Source: Bacteroidota bacterium (lineage in GTDB: Bacteria; Bacteroidota; Bacteroidia; UKL13-3). From it: a stretch of 58,146 nucleotides of DNA. The stretch lies in the NCBI GenBank assembly GCA_947460345.1, contig CANHGM010000019.1:1-58146 (forward strand), in the 5' to 3' direction. Within the stretch, counting starts at the first letter, position 1, and each line of letters opens with the position of its first letter. Both the position numbers and the translations under genes were made by a program. The notes beneath the pieces are model-generated. The model was not told the DNA's origin. It worked only from the letters and a program-made list of their open reading frames with translations, and ran no database searches. Positions 8,495-58,146 of the stretch are shown piece by piece.

Positions 8495-9208
8495 TTATAT
8501 TAAGTAGAAGAATGTAAATACAAACACCCAAACTAAGTCTACAAAGTGCCAATAAAGCCCAACTTTTTCGACCATTTCATAATGGCCTCTTCTTTCATAA
8601 GTACCTGATTGAACGTTTACATAGATTACAATATTTAAAACAACACCACTAAGTACGTGAAATCCGTGGAAACCAGTTACAATAAAGAATAAGTCAGCAA
8701 ACGCAGCTGGACCGTATTCATTAATATTCAAATTGGCACCAAAAACTTTCACACCATCAATGATTCGACCTTCGTGAGAACCTTGGATAAACTTTGTCCA
8801 CTCCCAAGCTTGGCAGCTTAAGAAAGCAATACCACCTATGATTGTTAAAAACATATAATAACTTACGTCTTTCTTATCATTTCTATGACCCGCTTCAACA
8901 GCTAACACCATAGTAACAGAAGAAAATATGAGAATAAAGGTCATTAAACTCACAAAAAGTAATGGTAACTCCATTCCATGTAAAAATGGAAAGTGGTTAA
9001 ACACTTTTGAAGGGTCAGGCCACTTCATCGGAGCAAAGTCACTAGCTGCCAAAAATCTTTGACAACCATAAGCGGTTAGTAATGATGAAAATGTGAAAGC
9101 ATCTGATAGAAGGAAAATCCACATCATCAGTTTTCCGTAGCTCACATTGAAAGGTGATTTACCACCTGACCATGGGCTATTTGAGTTTTGTACGGCTAAT
9201 TCTGACAT
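8495..9208 (-). CDS. Cytochrome c oxidase subunit III
   Basis: A 237-residue heme-copper oxidase subunit III. It shows family landmarks GFHGFHVLSGV (about residues 178-188) and YWHFVDLVWVFVF near the C-terminus, with five or more membrane helices. It lies directly downstream of a second, shorter subunit-III-like gene, and both are co-directional in the oxidase operon. This longer copy is the better match to the canonical subunit III. Subunit III binds lipids and supports proton uptake in subunit I. Confidence 0.9.
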   Translation of the reverse strand: MSELAVQNSNSPWSGGKSPFNVSYGKLMMWIFLLSDAFTFSSLLTAYGCQRFLAASDFAPMKWPDPSKVFNHFPFLHGMELPLLFVSLMTFILIFSSVTMVLAVEAGHRNDKKDVSYYMFLTIIGGIAFLSCQAWEWTKFIQGSHEGRIIDGVKVFGANLNINEYGPAAFADLFFIVTGFHGFHVLSGVVLNIVIYVNVQSGTYERRGHYEMVEKVGLYWHFVDLVWVFVFTFFYLI

Positions 9209-9240
9209 CTTTTATTTGAGTTTATTATTAATTGTTAAGA

Positions 9241-9825
9241 TTAGGCTACTGATAAAAAAATGAATAAGTAAATCCAAAGTAGACCTACAAAATGCCAGTA
9301 GGTTGCTACAAGGTTCATGGTTATCATATTTTTTTTATGAACTTGAAATTTATTTGTTTTATAAAACAATACTATTAAAGCTATGAGTCCTCCGATAATA
9401 TGTGCTAAATGCAAACCAGAAAGAACATATACAAAAGAGAATGAAGCACTATCACCACTAAAGAAAATTTTATGATCTACCATTTGTTGCCATGCCATCA
9501 ATTGACCGACACAAAAAGCTATACCCAAAACTAAAGTAGCCAATGTATATATTTTACTTTGATTTATTTCATCATTTTTGGCTGCTTTTGAAGAAAGAAT
9601 TAAAGAGATACTTGAAGCAATCACAATAAATGTAGTAATTAAAAACATGCTAGGCATCTGAAAATCTACCCAACCTTTAGGGTCACCTTTTTTCACAATA
9701 TAAGCACTTGTTAAACCAGCAAACATCATTGACATAGCAACAATGGCAATCCACAACATTAACTTATGTGGGTGAATTACATATTGTTCGCGTGATGTAG
9801 GTGCAGGTTGTAGTATTTTATTCAT
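9241..9825 (-). CDS. Second cytochrome c oxidase subunit III-like protein
   Basis: A 194-residue five-helix protein with shortened versions of the subunit III motifs: SGLHLAHIIGG in the middle and YWHFVGLLWIYLF at the end. The ATG follows the heme O synthase stop with no gap (TAAATG), so translation is probably coupled. Two adjacent subunit-III-type genes, one short and one full length, are a regular feature of Bacteroidota oxidase operons. The short copy resembles the five-helix form found in other heme-copper oxidases. Confidence 0.87.
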   Translation of the reverse strand: MNKILQPAPTSREQYVIHPHKLMLWIAIVAMSMMFAGLTSAYIVKKGDPKGWVDFQMPSMFLITTFIVIASSISLILSSKAAKNDEINQSKIYTLATLVLGIAFCVGQLMAWQQMVDHKIFFSGDSASFSFVYVLSGLHLAHIIGGLIALIVLFYKTNKFQVHKKNMITMNLVATYWHFVGLLWIYLFIFLSVA

Positions 9826-53993: not shown

Positions 53994-54008
53994 GTCGTAA
54001 TTAAGAAA

Positions 54009-54016
54009 CAAAATTA
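54009..54016 (-). promoter_or_regulatory. Probable -7 element of hscA
   Basis: The minus strand reads TAATTTTG, an exact match, 16 bases before the hscA ATG. A TTTCG lies about 20 bases upstream as a degenerate -33. The box contains the in-frame TTG that automatic gene calling would take as the start. Confidence 0.5.
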
Positions 54017-54121
54017 AGGTTGAAAGTGTTTGTTGGCGAAAGTTATCTTTATAAAAAAATAAACATGTTAAATTGTCAAAACCAATTATATATTTAGATT
54101 TTTTATATAAGAACTGTTGTT

Positions 54122-54129
54122 TATTTTTG
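54122..54129 (+). promoter_or_regulatory. Probable -7 element of the heptose epimerase gene
   Basis: TATTTTTG is an exact TAnnTTTG match and ends seven bases before the ATG at 54137, again implying a leaderless or nearly leaderless transcript. No clear -33 element. Confidence 0.45.
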
Positions 54130-54136
54130 ATGCCTC

Positions 54137-55102
54137 ATGATAGTCATCACAGGTTCAGCAGGTTTCATCGGAAGTTGCTTTGTATCTAAGCTCAATCAAG
54201 AAGGATATACTGATTTGATATTGGTAGACGACTTTACTCGAGCAGATAAGAAAAACAATTTTCAACACAAAACATATACAGAACTAATAAACCGTGATAT
54301 TTTTGAAAACTGGCTAGATACAAACCATAAATTGGTGCAATTTGTATTTCACTTAGGAGCCAGAACTGATACAACCTCACATGATGTTGCTACTTTTAAC
54401 AAATTAAATTTAGACTACTCTAAAATGGTTTGGCAAAAATGTTATGCATATGGTTTGCCTTTGGTATATGCTTCTTCTGCTGCCACCTATGGAGATGGAA
54501 CTTTAAGTTATGACGACAACCACCAAATCATACCATCTCTTAAACCATTAAACCCATATGGCGAATCAAAAAACAATTTTGATATATGGGCATTGTCGCA
54601 AAATGAGGCTCCATTTTTTTGGGCAGGATTAAAGTTCTTTAATGTATATGGCCCAAACGAATACCACAAAGGACGAATGGCTTCGGTTATTTTTCATACC
54701 TATAATCAAATAAAAGAACACGGACAAACCAAGTTATTTAAATCGCATAACCCTAAGTTTTTAGACGGGGAACAAATGCGAGATTTTGTATATGTAAAAG
54801 ATGTGTGTGATGTATTATTTTTTTTACTACACCACCGCAAAGATTCAGGTATATACAATTTAGGTAGTGGCAAAGCCAGAACTTTTAAAGACTTAGCCAA
54901 CAGTGTTTTTAACAGTATATATATTGAACCCAATATTGAATATATAGACACCCCTATAGATATCAGAGATACCTATCAATATTACACAGAAGCCAACATG
55001 AATAAACTGATTAATATTGGCTACAGCAAACCTTTCAATTCGCTAGAAGAAGGTATTAAAGACTATGTGAGGAATTACTTGCAGTTTGGGGAGTATATGT
55101 AA
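54137..55102 (+). CDS. rfaD: ADP-glyceromanno-heptose 6-epimerase
   Basis: A 321-residue short-chain dehydrogenase/epimerase. The NAD(P) loop is ITGSAGFIGS (residues 4-13). The catalytic tyrosine and lysine are in NPYGESK (about 140-146). The phrases FHLGARTDTT (about 72-81) and FFNVYGPNEYHKGRMAS match HldD/RfaD over other sugar epimerases. It converts ADP-D-glycero- to ADP-L-glycero-D-manno-heptose for the lipopolysaccharide inner core. Other heptose genes are not adjacent. Single gene followed by a REP-like palindrome. Confidence 0.9.
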   Translation: MIVITGSAGFIGSCFVSKLNQEGYTDLILVDDFTRADKKNNFQHKTYTELINRDIFENWLDTNHKLVQFVFHLGARTDTTSHDVATFNKLNLDYSKMVWQKCYAYGLPLVYASSAATYGDGTLSYDDNHQIIPSLKPLNPYGESKNNFDIWALSQNEAPFFWAGLKFFNVYGPNEYHKGRMASVIFHTYNQIKEHGQTKLFKSHNPKFLDGEQMRDFVYVKDVCDVLFFLLHHRKDSGIYNLGSGKARTFKDLANSVFNSIYIEPNIEYIDTPIDIRDTYQYYTEANMNKLINIGYSKPFNSLEEGIKDYVRNYLQFGEYM

Positions 55103-55195
55103 ATTGGAATCATATACTACATATTAGTTTTTTAATTTATATAATTATTTTATCTCCAAGTTATAAATGAGTTAAGGAATATTGAAGTCCAATTC

Positions 55196-55261
55196 TGAAT
55201 CCAAAGGATTCATATATTTATAAAACAACAACATCACTTTCAATGACCCCAGCGGGGTCAT
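55196..55261. repeat. REP-like double palindrome
   Basis: Two perfect palindromes lie close together: TGAATCC-AAA-GGATTCA (55196-55212) and ATGACCCC-AGC-GGGGTCAT (55243-55261). The arrangement of short stems with 3-base loops in an intergenic, otherwise AT-rich stretch fits REP-type elements. It lies between the convergent epimerase gene and the small membrane protein genes, where it may also act as a terminator. 55103-55195 holds nothing else I can identify. Confidence 0.55.
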
Positions 55262-55269
55262 ATATATTT

Positions 55270-55428
55270 CTATATATCCTCATCTTTCTTGTTTTTATTA
55301 GCAAAATACAAGCGTATAATAAGCAAACACAATGCTATGGCACAAAGCATATTCATCCAAAAAGGAACACCCTCTGAGCTATTTACATCTCTGTTAACCC
55401 GTAAAATAATATCTAAAAATGTATTCAA
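55270..55428 (-). CDS. Small membrane protein, second copy of a tandem pair
   Basis: A 52-codon frame from TTG at 55428 to TAG at 55270. It is clearly related to the upstream gene: both have LRVN/Q, an NSS, PFWxNMLCxIALCxLxIRxYFA core and a charged tail (KNKKDEDI here). One membrane helix covers about residues 25-43. The codons of the shared core differ mostly at third positions (for example CCA/CCT, CGT/CGC, GCG/GCT), which indicates that the protein has been conserved since the duplication. The start is uncertain; the TTG lines up with the start of the other copy. No known family. Confidence 0.65.
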   Translation of the reverse strand: MNTFLDIILRVNRDVNSSEGVPFWMNMLCAIALCLLIIRLYFANKNKKDEDI

Positions 55429-55439
55429 ATTACACCAAC

Positions 55440-55622
55440 TTATTGCTCTTCCTTTTTCTCCTTTTTCTTTATGGGTTTAATATCTTTTACCGCAAAATAA
55501 ATACGAATTAAAAGGACACACAAAGCAATTGTACATAGCATATTGAACCAAAATGGAATATTGGCTGAACTATTAAAATTCAATGGTTGAACTCGCAACA
55601 AAATCATCAATAAAATACTCAA
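55440..55622 (-). CDS. Small membrane protein, first copy of a tandem pair
   Basis: A 60-codon frame from TTG at 55622; an internal ATG at 55607 would give 55 codons. It has a short amphipathic start, then PFWFNMLCTIALCVLLIRIYFA as one membrane helix, and a Lys/Glu-rich tail ending KKEKKEEQ. The second copy starts 11 bases after this stop, so the two form an operon. No nearby gene suggests a role and I do not recognise the family. 55623-55717 upstream is AT-rich with no exact promoter box. Confidence 0.68.
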   Translation of the reverse strand: MSILLMILLRVQPLNFNSSANIPFWFNMLCTIALCVLLIRIYFAVKDIKPIKKKEKKEEQ

Positions 55623-55717
55623 TATATACTATCACTTAAATATTAATTCAACAATATTTTCAATCAAATTTTTAGTAAAACATATTACTAAAAAGATCAT
55701 TAAACTAGATACTATAG

Positions 55718-57628
55718 TTATCTATTCACCACTATTTTTTTAGTCACCACGCCACTATTCGTTTCCATTTTTACAATATAAAAACCAGCTGACAATGCTG
55801 AAGTATGTATAGGCAATTCTCTAGTCCCTGCTTCTATCCTTCCATTAAAATTATATACTTCATTTCCTAACATATTGATAATTTTAATTGAAACTTGTTG
55901 GGTGTTGGGTAGGTTCAATTTCAAATTACCTGAAGTTGTGATTGGATTGGGATATATCTCTAAACTATTATATACATCCGTTGAAACGCTTTCTAATCCT
56001 ACAGTTGGACTCATACCAATTTTGTCTAGCCACAACCTGTTGTCAAATTTAATGGCAGAAGTTTCCATTCTTACAATCACTTTTGACTGTCCAGCAAAAG
56101 CATTCAAACTCACAGAATTTGATTTCCAAGTAATAGGTATATACATGATGCTAGTTGATGGGTCAGTAGCAAATGAATCACTTCTTTGTAAAAATATATC
56201 TGTCCAAGTACTGCCACAATCAGAGCTCGCTTGCACTTTAAAAGTTACTTCATTAGACTGGCCAGTATAAGTAGCATAAGCATGATCGAAATTGATATAT
56301 GCTGTGCTTGCTGTTGACAAATCTAATGTTGGTAAATATAAATGGTCTGATTTGTATTGATTGGGGTTAATCTGTCTAAAGTTACTTAAGTATAAAGAAC
56401 CTGTTCCTTTGTTAAATGAACTGGTATACCCTGTTCTAGTATATATATAGCCATCTAAGTCAATATCATCAACGGCGAAAGTGGGAGGCATTCCGATGCC
56501 GTCAAATTCTTCAGTAAATGGTTTGGTAGTGAAGGTATTTAAAGTGCTAAACTTATATATCACAGTATCGTCGTAAGCATCTCTGTCTAAATCGTTATTG
56601 GGCATTGAGGTAAATGCTTTTAATATATGTCTGCCATGAGTGGGTGTATATATAGGCAAACTTATTTCTTCGCTTGCACCAGTAGCTAAATTACCCGACC
56701 AATTTTGGGTTTGTATACTGCCATTATCAATAGAAAATTTAATAGTTACATTCGTTAAATTTTTATTGCCGTGATTGGTTAAAACTATTTTAGGATTGAT
56801 ATCAGTTAAGTTACATTGAAACGCAGGTATGTTTTTTATAGTATCTAAACCCGCTTCATTATCAAAGATTTTAGGTGCTCCATATGTGGCTTGTTTCACT
56901 TCTTTGGTTCCATCATCTTGTATAAACGAAACCAATTCTAAATCGCCTAAGTTGAAAATATTGCTAGGAATTTTATCTGATATATTGATGGTTTCAACTT
57001 GTCCAACGGTCCATGTGGTAGGCAATGCATAACCTGTAGCACTTGGCAACATTTTTCTAAACACATGATGAAAAAACATTTCCCCATTTACATTAACTGT
57101 TGGCACATAATAATTGATCAATTTTTCAGCAATGGCAATTCTAGCATATAATGAACCAGCTGCAGTGAATGCTTGAGTAGCCGTAATTTTCATCGAAACC
57201 GACATAGAATCAAATGTGGCATTATAATTATAATTTAGCTCGATACTAAAAGGTGAAGCTGCGGCTGCTCTAATATCAATATCTTTTTGTGATAGGTTAT
57301 CAATATGGTATGATTTATAATTACCATCTACTGTAACTATGGGTGCCGAACTAGAACTATAATATGCTTTTCTTACTTTACCATCAACGCTATTTAATAA
57401 ATCTGGAGGTGTCCAAGTGCCTATATATTCTTCATATTTCAATACCACCACTTTATTAGGAAAATTCTTTTCGCATTTTGCATCAAACGCAGGGTTAGAA
57501 ATACCACAAGGACCACATCCTCTGCCGGTATATTCTTCTAATAGTACTATATGTTGTGCATATATGTTTGAAAATACTAAGCTAAACAAGCAGCTTATAA
57601 AAATAGTTGTAAAAGTTTTTGTTCTCAT
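55718..57628 (-). CDS. Omp28-related protein with T9SS type A sorting domain
   Basis: A 636-residue secreted protein. The signal peptide ends at IYAQ (about residue 24). A thioredoxin-like domain follows directly with LLEEYTGRGCGPCG (CxxC at C38-C41), the hallmark of Omp28-related proteins. The middle has an Ig-like domain (about 260-350), then a choice-of-anchor J/MAM-like jelly roll (about 375-545, containing FTEEFDG and FDHAYATY). The C-terminus (YPNPITTSGNL..., GFYIVKM, KKIVVNR) is a type A sorting domain. The CxxC suggests redox or binding activity at the cell surface, which is inference. A full promoter lies upstream. Confidence 0.88.
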   Translation of the reverse strand: MRTKTFTTIFISCLFSLVFSNIYAQHIVLLEEYTGRGCGPCGISNPAFDAKCEKNFPNKVVVLKYEEYIGTWTPPDLLNSVDGKVRKAYYSSSSAPIVTVDGNYKSYHIDNLSQKDIDIRAAAASPFSIELNYNYNATFDSMSVSMKITATQAFTAAGSLYARIAIAEKLINYYVPTVNVNGEMFFHHVFRKMLPSATGYALPTTWTVGQVETINISDKIPSNIFNLGDLELVSFIQDDGTKEVKQATYGAPKIFDNEAGLDTIKNIPAFQCNLTDINPKIVLTNHGNKNLTNVTIKFSIDNGSIQTQNWSGNLATGASEEISLPIYTPTHGRHILKAFTSMPNNDLDRDAYDDTVIYKFSTLNTFTTKPFTEEFDGIGMPPTFAVDDIDLDGYIYTRTGYTSSFNKGTGSLYLSNFRQINPNQYKSDHLYLPTLDLSTASTAYINFDHAYATYTGQSNEVTFKVQASSDCGSTWTDIFLQRSDSFATDPSTSIMYIPITWKSNSVSLNAFAGQSKVIVRMETSAIKFDNRLWLDKIGMSPTVGLESVSTDVYNSLEIYPNPITTSGNLKLNLPNTQQVSIKIINMLGNEVYNFNGRIEAGTRELPIHTSALSAGFYIVKMETNSGVVTKKIVVNR

Positions 57629-57646
57629 TTTTCAGATTGATTAAAA

Positions 57647-57676
57647 CAAAGATAAGTAGTTAAGTTATTTATACAA
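57647..57676 (-). promoter_or_regulatory. Promoter of the Omp28-like gene
   Basis: On the minus strand TTG (57674-57676) and TATCTTTG (57647-57654) are separated by 19 bases, a full Bacteroidota -33/-7 match. The -7 box is 18 bases before the ATG at 57628. Confidence 0.68.
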
Positions 57677-57776
57677 TAGAACTTTTTTATTAATCTCATT
57701 AAAGTATATGATTCAAAAAAAACTATAGAATTTCATTAGGTAAAATTACACAATTGAATCTTTCTTTTACTCGTCA

Positions 57777-58146
57777 TGCTGAACTTGTTTCAGCATCTGT
57801 ATTTTTTGCAATTTGATTTGTGCATTTTTAGAGACCCTGAAATAAATTCAGGGTGACAACATCGGTTAAAGTTGACGGACTATCGGCACATATACACTCC
57901 CTCCAACGCGTCTTGCTGAACTTGTTTCAGCATCTGTGTTCTAGTAGAATTAAATTGTGATTATATAAAAGACCCTGAAATAAATTCAGGGTGACATACT
58001 ATCGGAACAAATACACCCCCTCCAACGCGTCTTGCTGAACTTGTTTCAGCATCTCTGTTTAATAGAATTGCTTATTTGATATAGAGACCCTGAAATAAAT
58101 TCAGGGTGACAGCTTCCGTTAAAAGTGTCAGACTAGCGGCACATAT
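57777..58146. repeat. Tandem array of paired REP-like hairpins
   Basis: Three units are visible and the array runs off the right edge. Each has hairpin A, TGCTGAA-CTTGT-TTCAGCA (57777-57795, 57914-57932, 58033-58051), and hairpin B, ACCCTGAA-ATAAA-TTCAGGGT (57834-57854, 57972-57992, 58087-58107). Unit spacing is 137 and 119 bases. A linker containing CGGCACATATACACTCCCTC (with small changes) lies between B and the next A. The hairpins are perfectly preserved while the bases between A and B vary, so structure appears selected. No gene lies in 57629-58146. Confidence 0.85.

Follow-up and report, generated by a model that had tools for sequence, protein, structure and literature searches.

DUF4212 genes typically adjoin a gene for a sodium-solute symporter. 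Together with DUF997/YhdT (PF06196) and MAP17, the DUF4212 family (PF13937) represents one kind of small membrane protein that acts as an auxiliary subunit of such transporters, and MAP17 in particular binds TM13 of SGLT2 through a single helix (PMC10803289). Type I toxins are short membrane-damaging hydrophobic peptides that are normally silenced by an antisense RNA. As summarized in PMC8309996, their common features are a length of up to about 60 aa, one helix, cysteines and a cationic C-terminal tail, and a duplicated type I locus, namely zorO-orzO/zorP-orzP, is described in PMC3919570. Here we compare these systems with a tandem pair of small frames from a Bacteroidota genome. The window, i.e. 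the whole stretch of DNA that was analysed, has a length of 58,146 nucleotides.

The two neighbouring frames that the initial annotation had reported are indeed present in the window, and they are listed with their surroundings in Table 1. They lie on the same strand, with 11 bases between the stop of copy 1 and the TTG of copy 2. Were translation of copy 1 to begin at its in-frame ATG (codon 6), a protein of 55 aa would result, while the first in-frame ATG of copy 2 does not come before codon 25; thus, initiation of both copies is most simply placed at the TTG codons, which are aligned with each other. Their GC contents (29% and 31%, vs. 33% for the window) fit the host.

Table 1. Features at and around the pair of small frames.
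Feature	Position	Strand	Description
Copy 1	55440-55622	minus	60-codon open frame, TTG start
Copy 2	55270-55428	minus	52-codon open frame, TTG start
Omp28-like / T9SS-sorted secreted protein gene	55718-57628	minus	upstream, 95 bases before copy 1
Heptose-epimerase gene	54137-55102		lies behind copy 2, converging
Hairpin	55243-55261		perfect 8-bp GC-rich stem, 3-base loop, 8 bases past the copy 2 stop

The two encoded proteins are clearly homologous, as had been claimed: the same residue stands at 27 of the 45 core codons in the pairwise alignment (60% protein identity), and when the window's 379 open frames of at least 40 aa were compared with one another by BLASTP, the copies matched at 50 bits (E 1e-12). 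A score as high is reached by just one further pair, namely the longer neighbouring frames at 8498-9825. These (8498-9211 and 9244-9825, both on the minus strand) are homologous at 24% identity over 209 aa (E 3e-13) and form another tandem duplication.

The manner in which the copies differ argues for selection on the protein. Nucleotide identity in the core is 67%, and the differences are distributed as 14, 7 and 24 over codon positions 1, 2 and 3, respectively. The pN/pS ratio between the copies is 0.49 (bootstrap range 0.27-0.82, with 1 of 1000 bootstraps reaching 1). The dN/dS ratio, which the initial annotation had set beforehand as a test, is about 0.34 and hence not near 1, at a dS of about 1.0 (45 codons, with wide error). 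When the observed substitutions were placed at random in 20,000 simulated neutral divergences, the observed protein identity or BLOSUM score was never matched (0/20,000), as many third-position changes arose in 0.03% of the simulations, and 10% of the outcomes were free of stops. In addition, the similarity of the DNA ends at the frame ends, the 60-base flanks being at chance level. Because of the third-position excess, the pN/pS ratio, the simulations and the confinement of similarity to the frames, the pair is very probably a duplicated protein gene under selection, as judged from the sequences; the earlier view that the protein and not the DNA had been kept holds.

Codon usage by itself gives no sign of coding in either copy. 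The values of -0.08 and -0.03 bits per codon are not gene-like when set against 22 large genes of the window (mean 0.19, minimum 0.06), and in a set of 115 spurious frames, 37% and 28% do as well as the two copies. Selection is thus deduced from a single comparison, that of copy 1 with copy 2. The same codon usage, the TTG starts and the lack of homologues (see below) would also suit a decaying repeat or a chance similarity in an intergenic stretch, i.e. no genes at all. We regard this as very unlikely, given that none of the neutral simulations keeps the protein similarity, that the third-position excess and the bootstrap values are so rarely reached by chance, and that the flanks are dissimilar.

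Each copy has one hydrophobic segment followed by a charged tail, in agreement with the initial description. In copy 1 the helix spans approximately residues 24-46 and precedes a lysine-rich tail with a net charge of +3 by count; copy 2 has the same helix and a shorter tail, in which K is balanced by D/E so that the net charge by count is neutral. The 19-residue mean hydropathy peaks at 2.13 (residue 27) in copy 1 and at 2.19 (residue 20) in copy 2. The predicted structure of copy 1, which is of low confidence (mean pLDDT 62.9), contains helices at 2-10 and 24-52. Within the core PFWxNMLCxIALCxLxIRxYFA, the N, two C and R are kept in the helix of both copies. The variable helix positions are not clustered on one face (R 0.40, p 0.31), so that any binding face stays putative. 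According to the positive-inside rule, the positively charged end of a membrane helix lies on the cytoplasmic side; the lysine-rich end of copy 1 therefore suggests a cytoplasmic tail.

These features bring the copies close to the Ldr/Fst, TisB and ZorO toxins, which are likewise small, with one hydrophobic helix and a charged C-terminal tail, and for which duplicated loci are known. The main rival to our preferred reading is that the pair encodes tandem type I toxins. The copies have the size (52 aa, and 60 or 55 aa), the single helix and the cysteines given for such toxins, and copy 1 also has the cationic tail (PMC8309996); the hydropathy peaks of 2.1-2.2 and the lengths suit a membrane-associated type I toxin, and zorO-orzO/zorP-orzP provides a precedent for the duplication (PMC3919570). 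The pair differs from these toxins, however, in lacking an evident antisense RNA, antisense promoter or family match. At an E limit of 1, Rfam has no family matching 54000-57800, scans for an antisense promoter at the locus give nothing above chance, and no Pfam or NCBIfam family matches either copy over its cut-off. Moreover, the tail of copy 2 is neutral, and it is the protein that has been kept at a dS of about 1.0, whereas we would expect a shared antisense RNA to hold the DNA. We consider a toxin pair fairly unlikely.

A likeness to symporter partners is attractive since three such families appear among the weak matches, i.e. DUF4212 (E 0.12 and 0.048), DUF997 (E 0.05) and, as a PDB profile match, MAP17 of the SGLT2 complex (E 2.4). 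The pair shares with them a proline-aromatic motif before the helix and a charged tail. Few segment-preserving shuffles of the same copy score as well (3 and 15 of 3000 with the DUF4212 model, 66 and 1 of 3000 with the DUF997 model), and the genome encodes one sodium-solute symporter, while neither DUF4212 nor DUF997 matches the genome at E 0.01. Nevertheless, these families were chosen post hoc from a search of 24,736 models, and of 10 shuffled copies, 6 match a Pfam family with an E of 0.2 or lower (0.05 or lower in 4, 0.0014 in one). The Pfam scores are about half of the gathering cut-offs: 13.3 and 14.5 bits vs. 30 bits for DUF4212, and 14 bits vs. 26.3 bits for DUF997 with copy 1, copy 2 having none listed. 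The adjacency to a symporter gene expected of DUF4212 is absent, as the only symporter lies on another contig (C30, the window being C19), where inspection of its 4.2-kb locus by eye shows neighbouring frames of other kinds. Finally, the rows of DUF4212 and DUF997 have two hydrophobic segments vs. one helix in the pair. As shuffled copies reach Pfam families equally well, this reading was dropped, and we hold it to be highly improbable.

Two other sets of weak matches that carry no shuffle control of their own, namely PycTM in PADLOC (E 0.008) and PHROG matches down to 0.0049, were set aside in the same way as the shuffle-level Pfam matches. Literature searches found no paper on the pair and none for 'DUF4212'.

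Relatives were sought in the family (64 genomes, own included, the same 64 being the whole order as sampled), in samples of the class and the phylum (n=395 each), and in genome contigs, viral contigs, and phage and plasmid records. The class sample includes family genomes, some genomes occur in several searches, and in the class and phylum at most 16 candidates per genome from a first screening were scored; the genus-level search covered one genome, i.e. the pair's own, and the named collections may omit records very near that genome. In none of these searches was an acceptable relative found outside the own genome. The initial annotation had named a complete lack of homologues as one of two outcomes that would speak against its claim, and this outcome is the one seen in the genomes searched; the word 'conserved' stands for the two copies with respect to each other and is not supported for other genomes.

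In the own genome, a two-row model (E limit 0.05) recovers both copies but no further one. A single-sequence search gave three further places (E 0.028 to 1.4); the strongest of them is interrupted by stops. At the E limit of 0.05, 26 of the 64 family genomes (own included) have a match, and acceptable matches occur in the own genome only (1/64), the weak family and own-genome matches having been judged on the 12 frames that were read. The sole match under 0.001 in another family genome (G060, E 3.7e-5) is in another reading frame within a 715-aa open frame. Under 0.001, matches are found in 2 of 395 genomes of the class and in 2 of 395 of the phylum: in each case one is the own genome, and the other lies within a 432-aa frame (G673, E 2.9e-4) or antisense to a 453-aa frame (G380, E 8.6e-5), respectively.

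In genome contigs, a pattern scan gave 177 stretches, none of which was confirmed, and a scan for the motif PFWxNMLC gave 23 stretches, all translated, in which no small frame of such build was recognized by eye. One of these encodes a 116-aa membrane protein of Yersinia proxima (locus L103, 7518-7868, minus strand) in which a hydrophobic segment follows an exact PFWLNMLC; with 13.3 bits, mid-range among 25 motif-selected frames, it scores like a chance match to the motif. Two scans of viral contigs gave no relative, and both of their motif stretches are unrelated by eye. Neither copy matches the phage and plasmid records.

Gene order gave no orthologue either. None of 12 other window proteins was matched in 20 regions around the heptose-epimerase gene of other family genomes (E 1e-5, 45 bits), so the neighbourhood is not kept. 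Among 7605 short frames from these 20 loci and from 29 loci of relatives of the T9SS gene, the best E with the pair model is 0.24.

The presence of the pair in 1 of 64 family genomes, and the adjoining T9SS gene, which is likewise poorly conserved (family relatives 24-33% identical), could point to acquisition from a phage or mobile element by horizontal transfer. This is quite unlikely, since the phage, plasmid and viral searches give no match, the base composition is host-like and the window contains no tRNA. The age of the duplication can be estimated by comparison with a neighbouring gene. For the heptose-epimerase gene, synonymous sites are saturated vs. 4 of 6 relatives, and dS is 2.1-2.2 vs. 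the other two. Because the copies stand at a dS of about 1.0, comparison across genes indicates that the duplication probably postdates the divergence from the closest genera sampled, in keeping with a family restricted to this genus.

Downstream of copy 2, the hairpin between the converging genes is the only GACCCCNNNGGGGTC in the window. It is terminator-like on the plus strand, where its T-rich tail lies, and would serve the heptose-epimerase gene; the minus-strand RNA also folds stably there (z = -3.95, with 0 of 200 shuffles as stable), and the hairpin is possibly used from both sides. Just before it lies a second hairpin (55196-55212, 7 pairs), whose plus-strand tail is likewise T-rich. 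A Bacteroidota-type promoter is not above chance at the pair: the 3 minus-strand near-matches are all within the frames (shuffle mean 1.28), and each of the window's 4 exact matches falls outside the locus. The initial annotation saw no evident partner, and no partner gene is found near the pair.

Taken together, the evidence is best accommodated by a lineage-restricted, paralogous pair of single-helix inner-membrane microproteins that bind each other or some other membrane partner by helix-helix contact, a tentative reading to which we give somewhat less than an even chance. What we propose for transcription, translation, topology, partner and function is as follows. Both copies would be made from one short transcript. 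The N-terminus would lie outside, with PFW at the outer interface, a helix of about 20 residues and the charged tail in the cytoplasm. The helix may bind to the other copy, to a larger membrane protein or to both, and it would tune the activity or stability of the larger protein. This microprotein-pair reading is supported by the protein-level selection, the flanks at chance, the one hydrophobic segment per copy, the predicted helix 24-52, the retention of both copies despite heavy synonymous-site change, the host-like GC, the 11-base spacing and the hairpin after copy 2. Against it stand the lack of an orthologue as independent proof of selection, the codon usage, the non-ATG starts, the promoter at chance, the unclustered variable positions, the lack of a nearby partner gene and the low model confidence. 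In a bolder version, which we consider unlikely, the pair would be a new family restricted to one otherwise unsampled Bacteroidota genus, and its two members would act as an obligate hetero-oligomer on some membrane transporter or enzyme, encoded at another place in the genome, and regulate it.

With no relative in the other genomes searched and no known partner, the pair looks like ordinary lineage-specific genes of putative function, i.e. an orphan pair of a known kind. Single-helix proteins of this orphan sort are common, and the finding alone therefore changes little unless a partner or phenotype emerges. The pair illustrates well how a small-protein gene can be invisible to database searches, the sole evidence of gene status being the way in which two adjacent copies have diverged.

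Another small single-helix protein was seen in two genera of the family (L036, 1498-1641, and L045, 1153-1314, both on the minus strand; 47 and 53 aa). When profiles of the 47-aa frame and the pair were compared, the match (probability 90%) was limited to the last 31 columns, i.e. the helix end and charged tail, and was taken, without a shuffle control, as an effect of composition. This other microprotein is kept in place in both genera, flanked by what we take to be genes for an RmlD-like sugar-nucleotide reductase and a helix-hairpin-helix-like protein, with presumably an acyl-CoA-dehydrogenase-like gene beyond.
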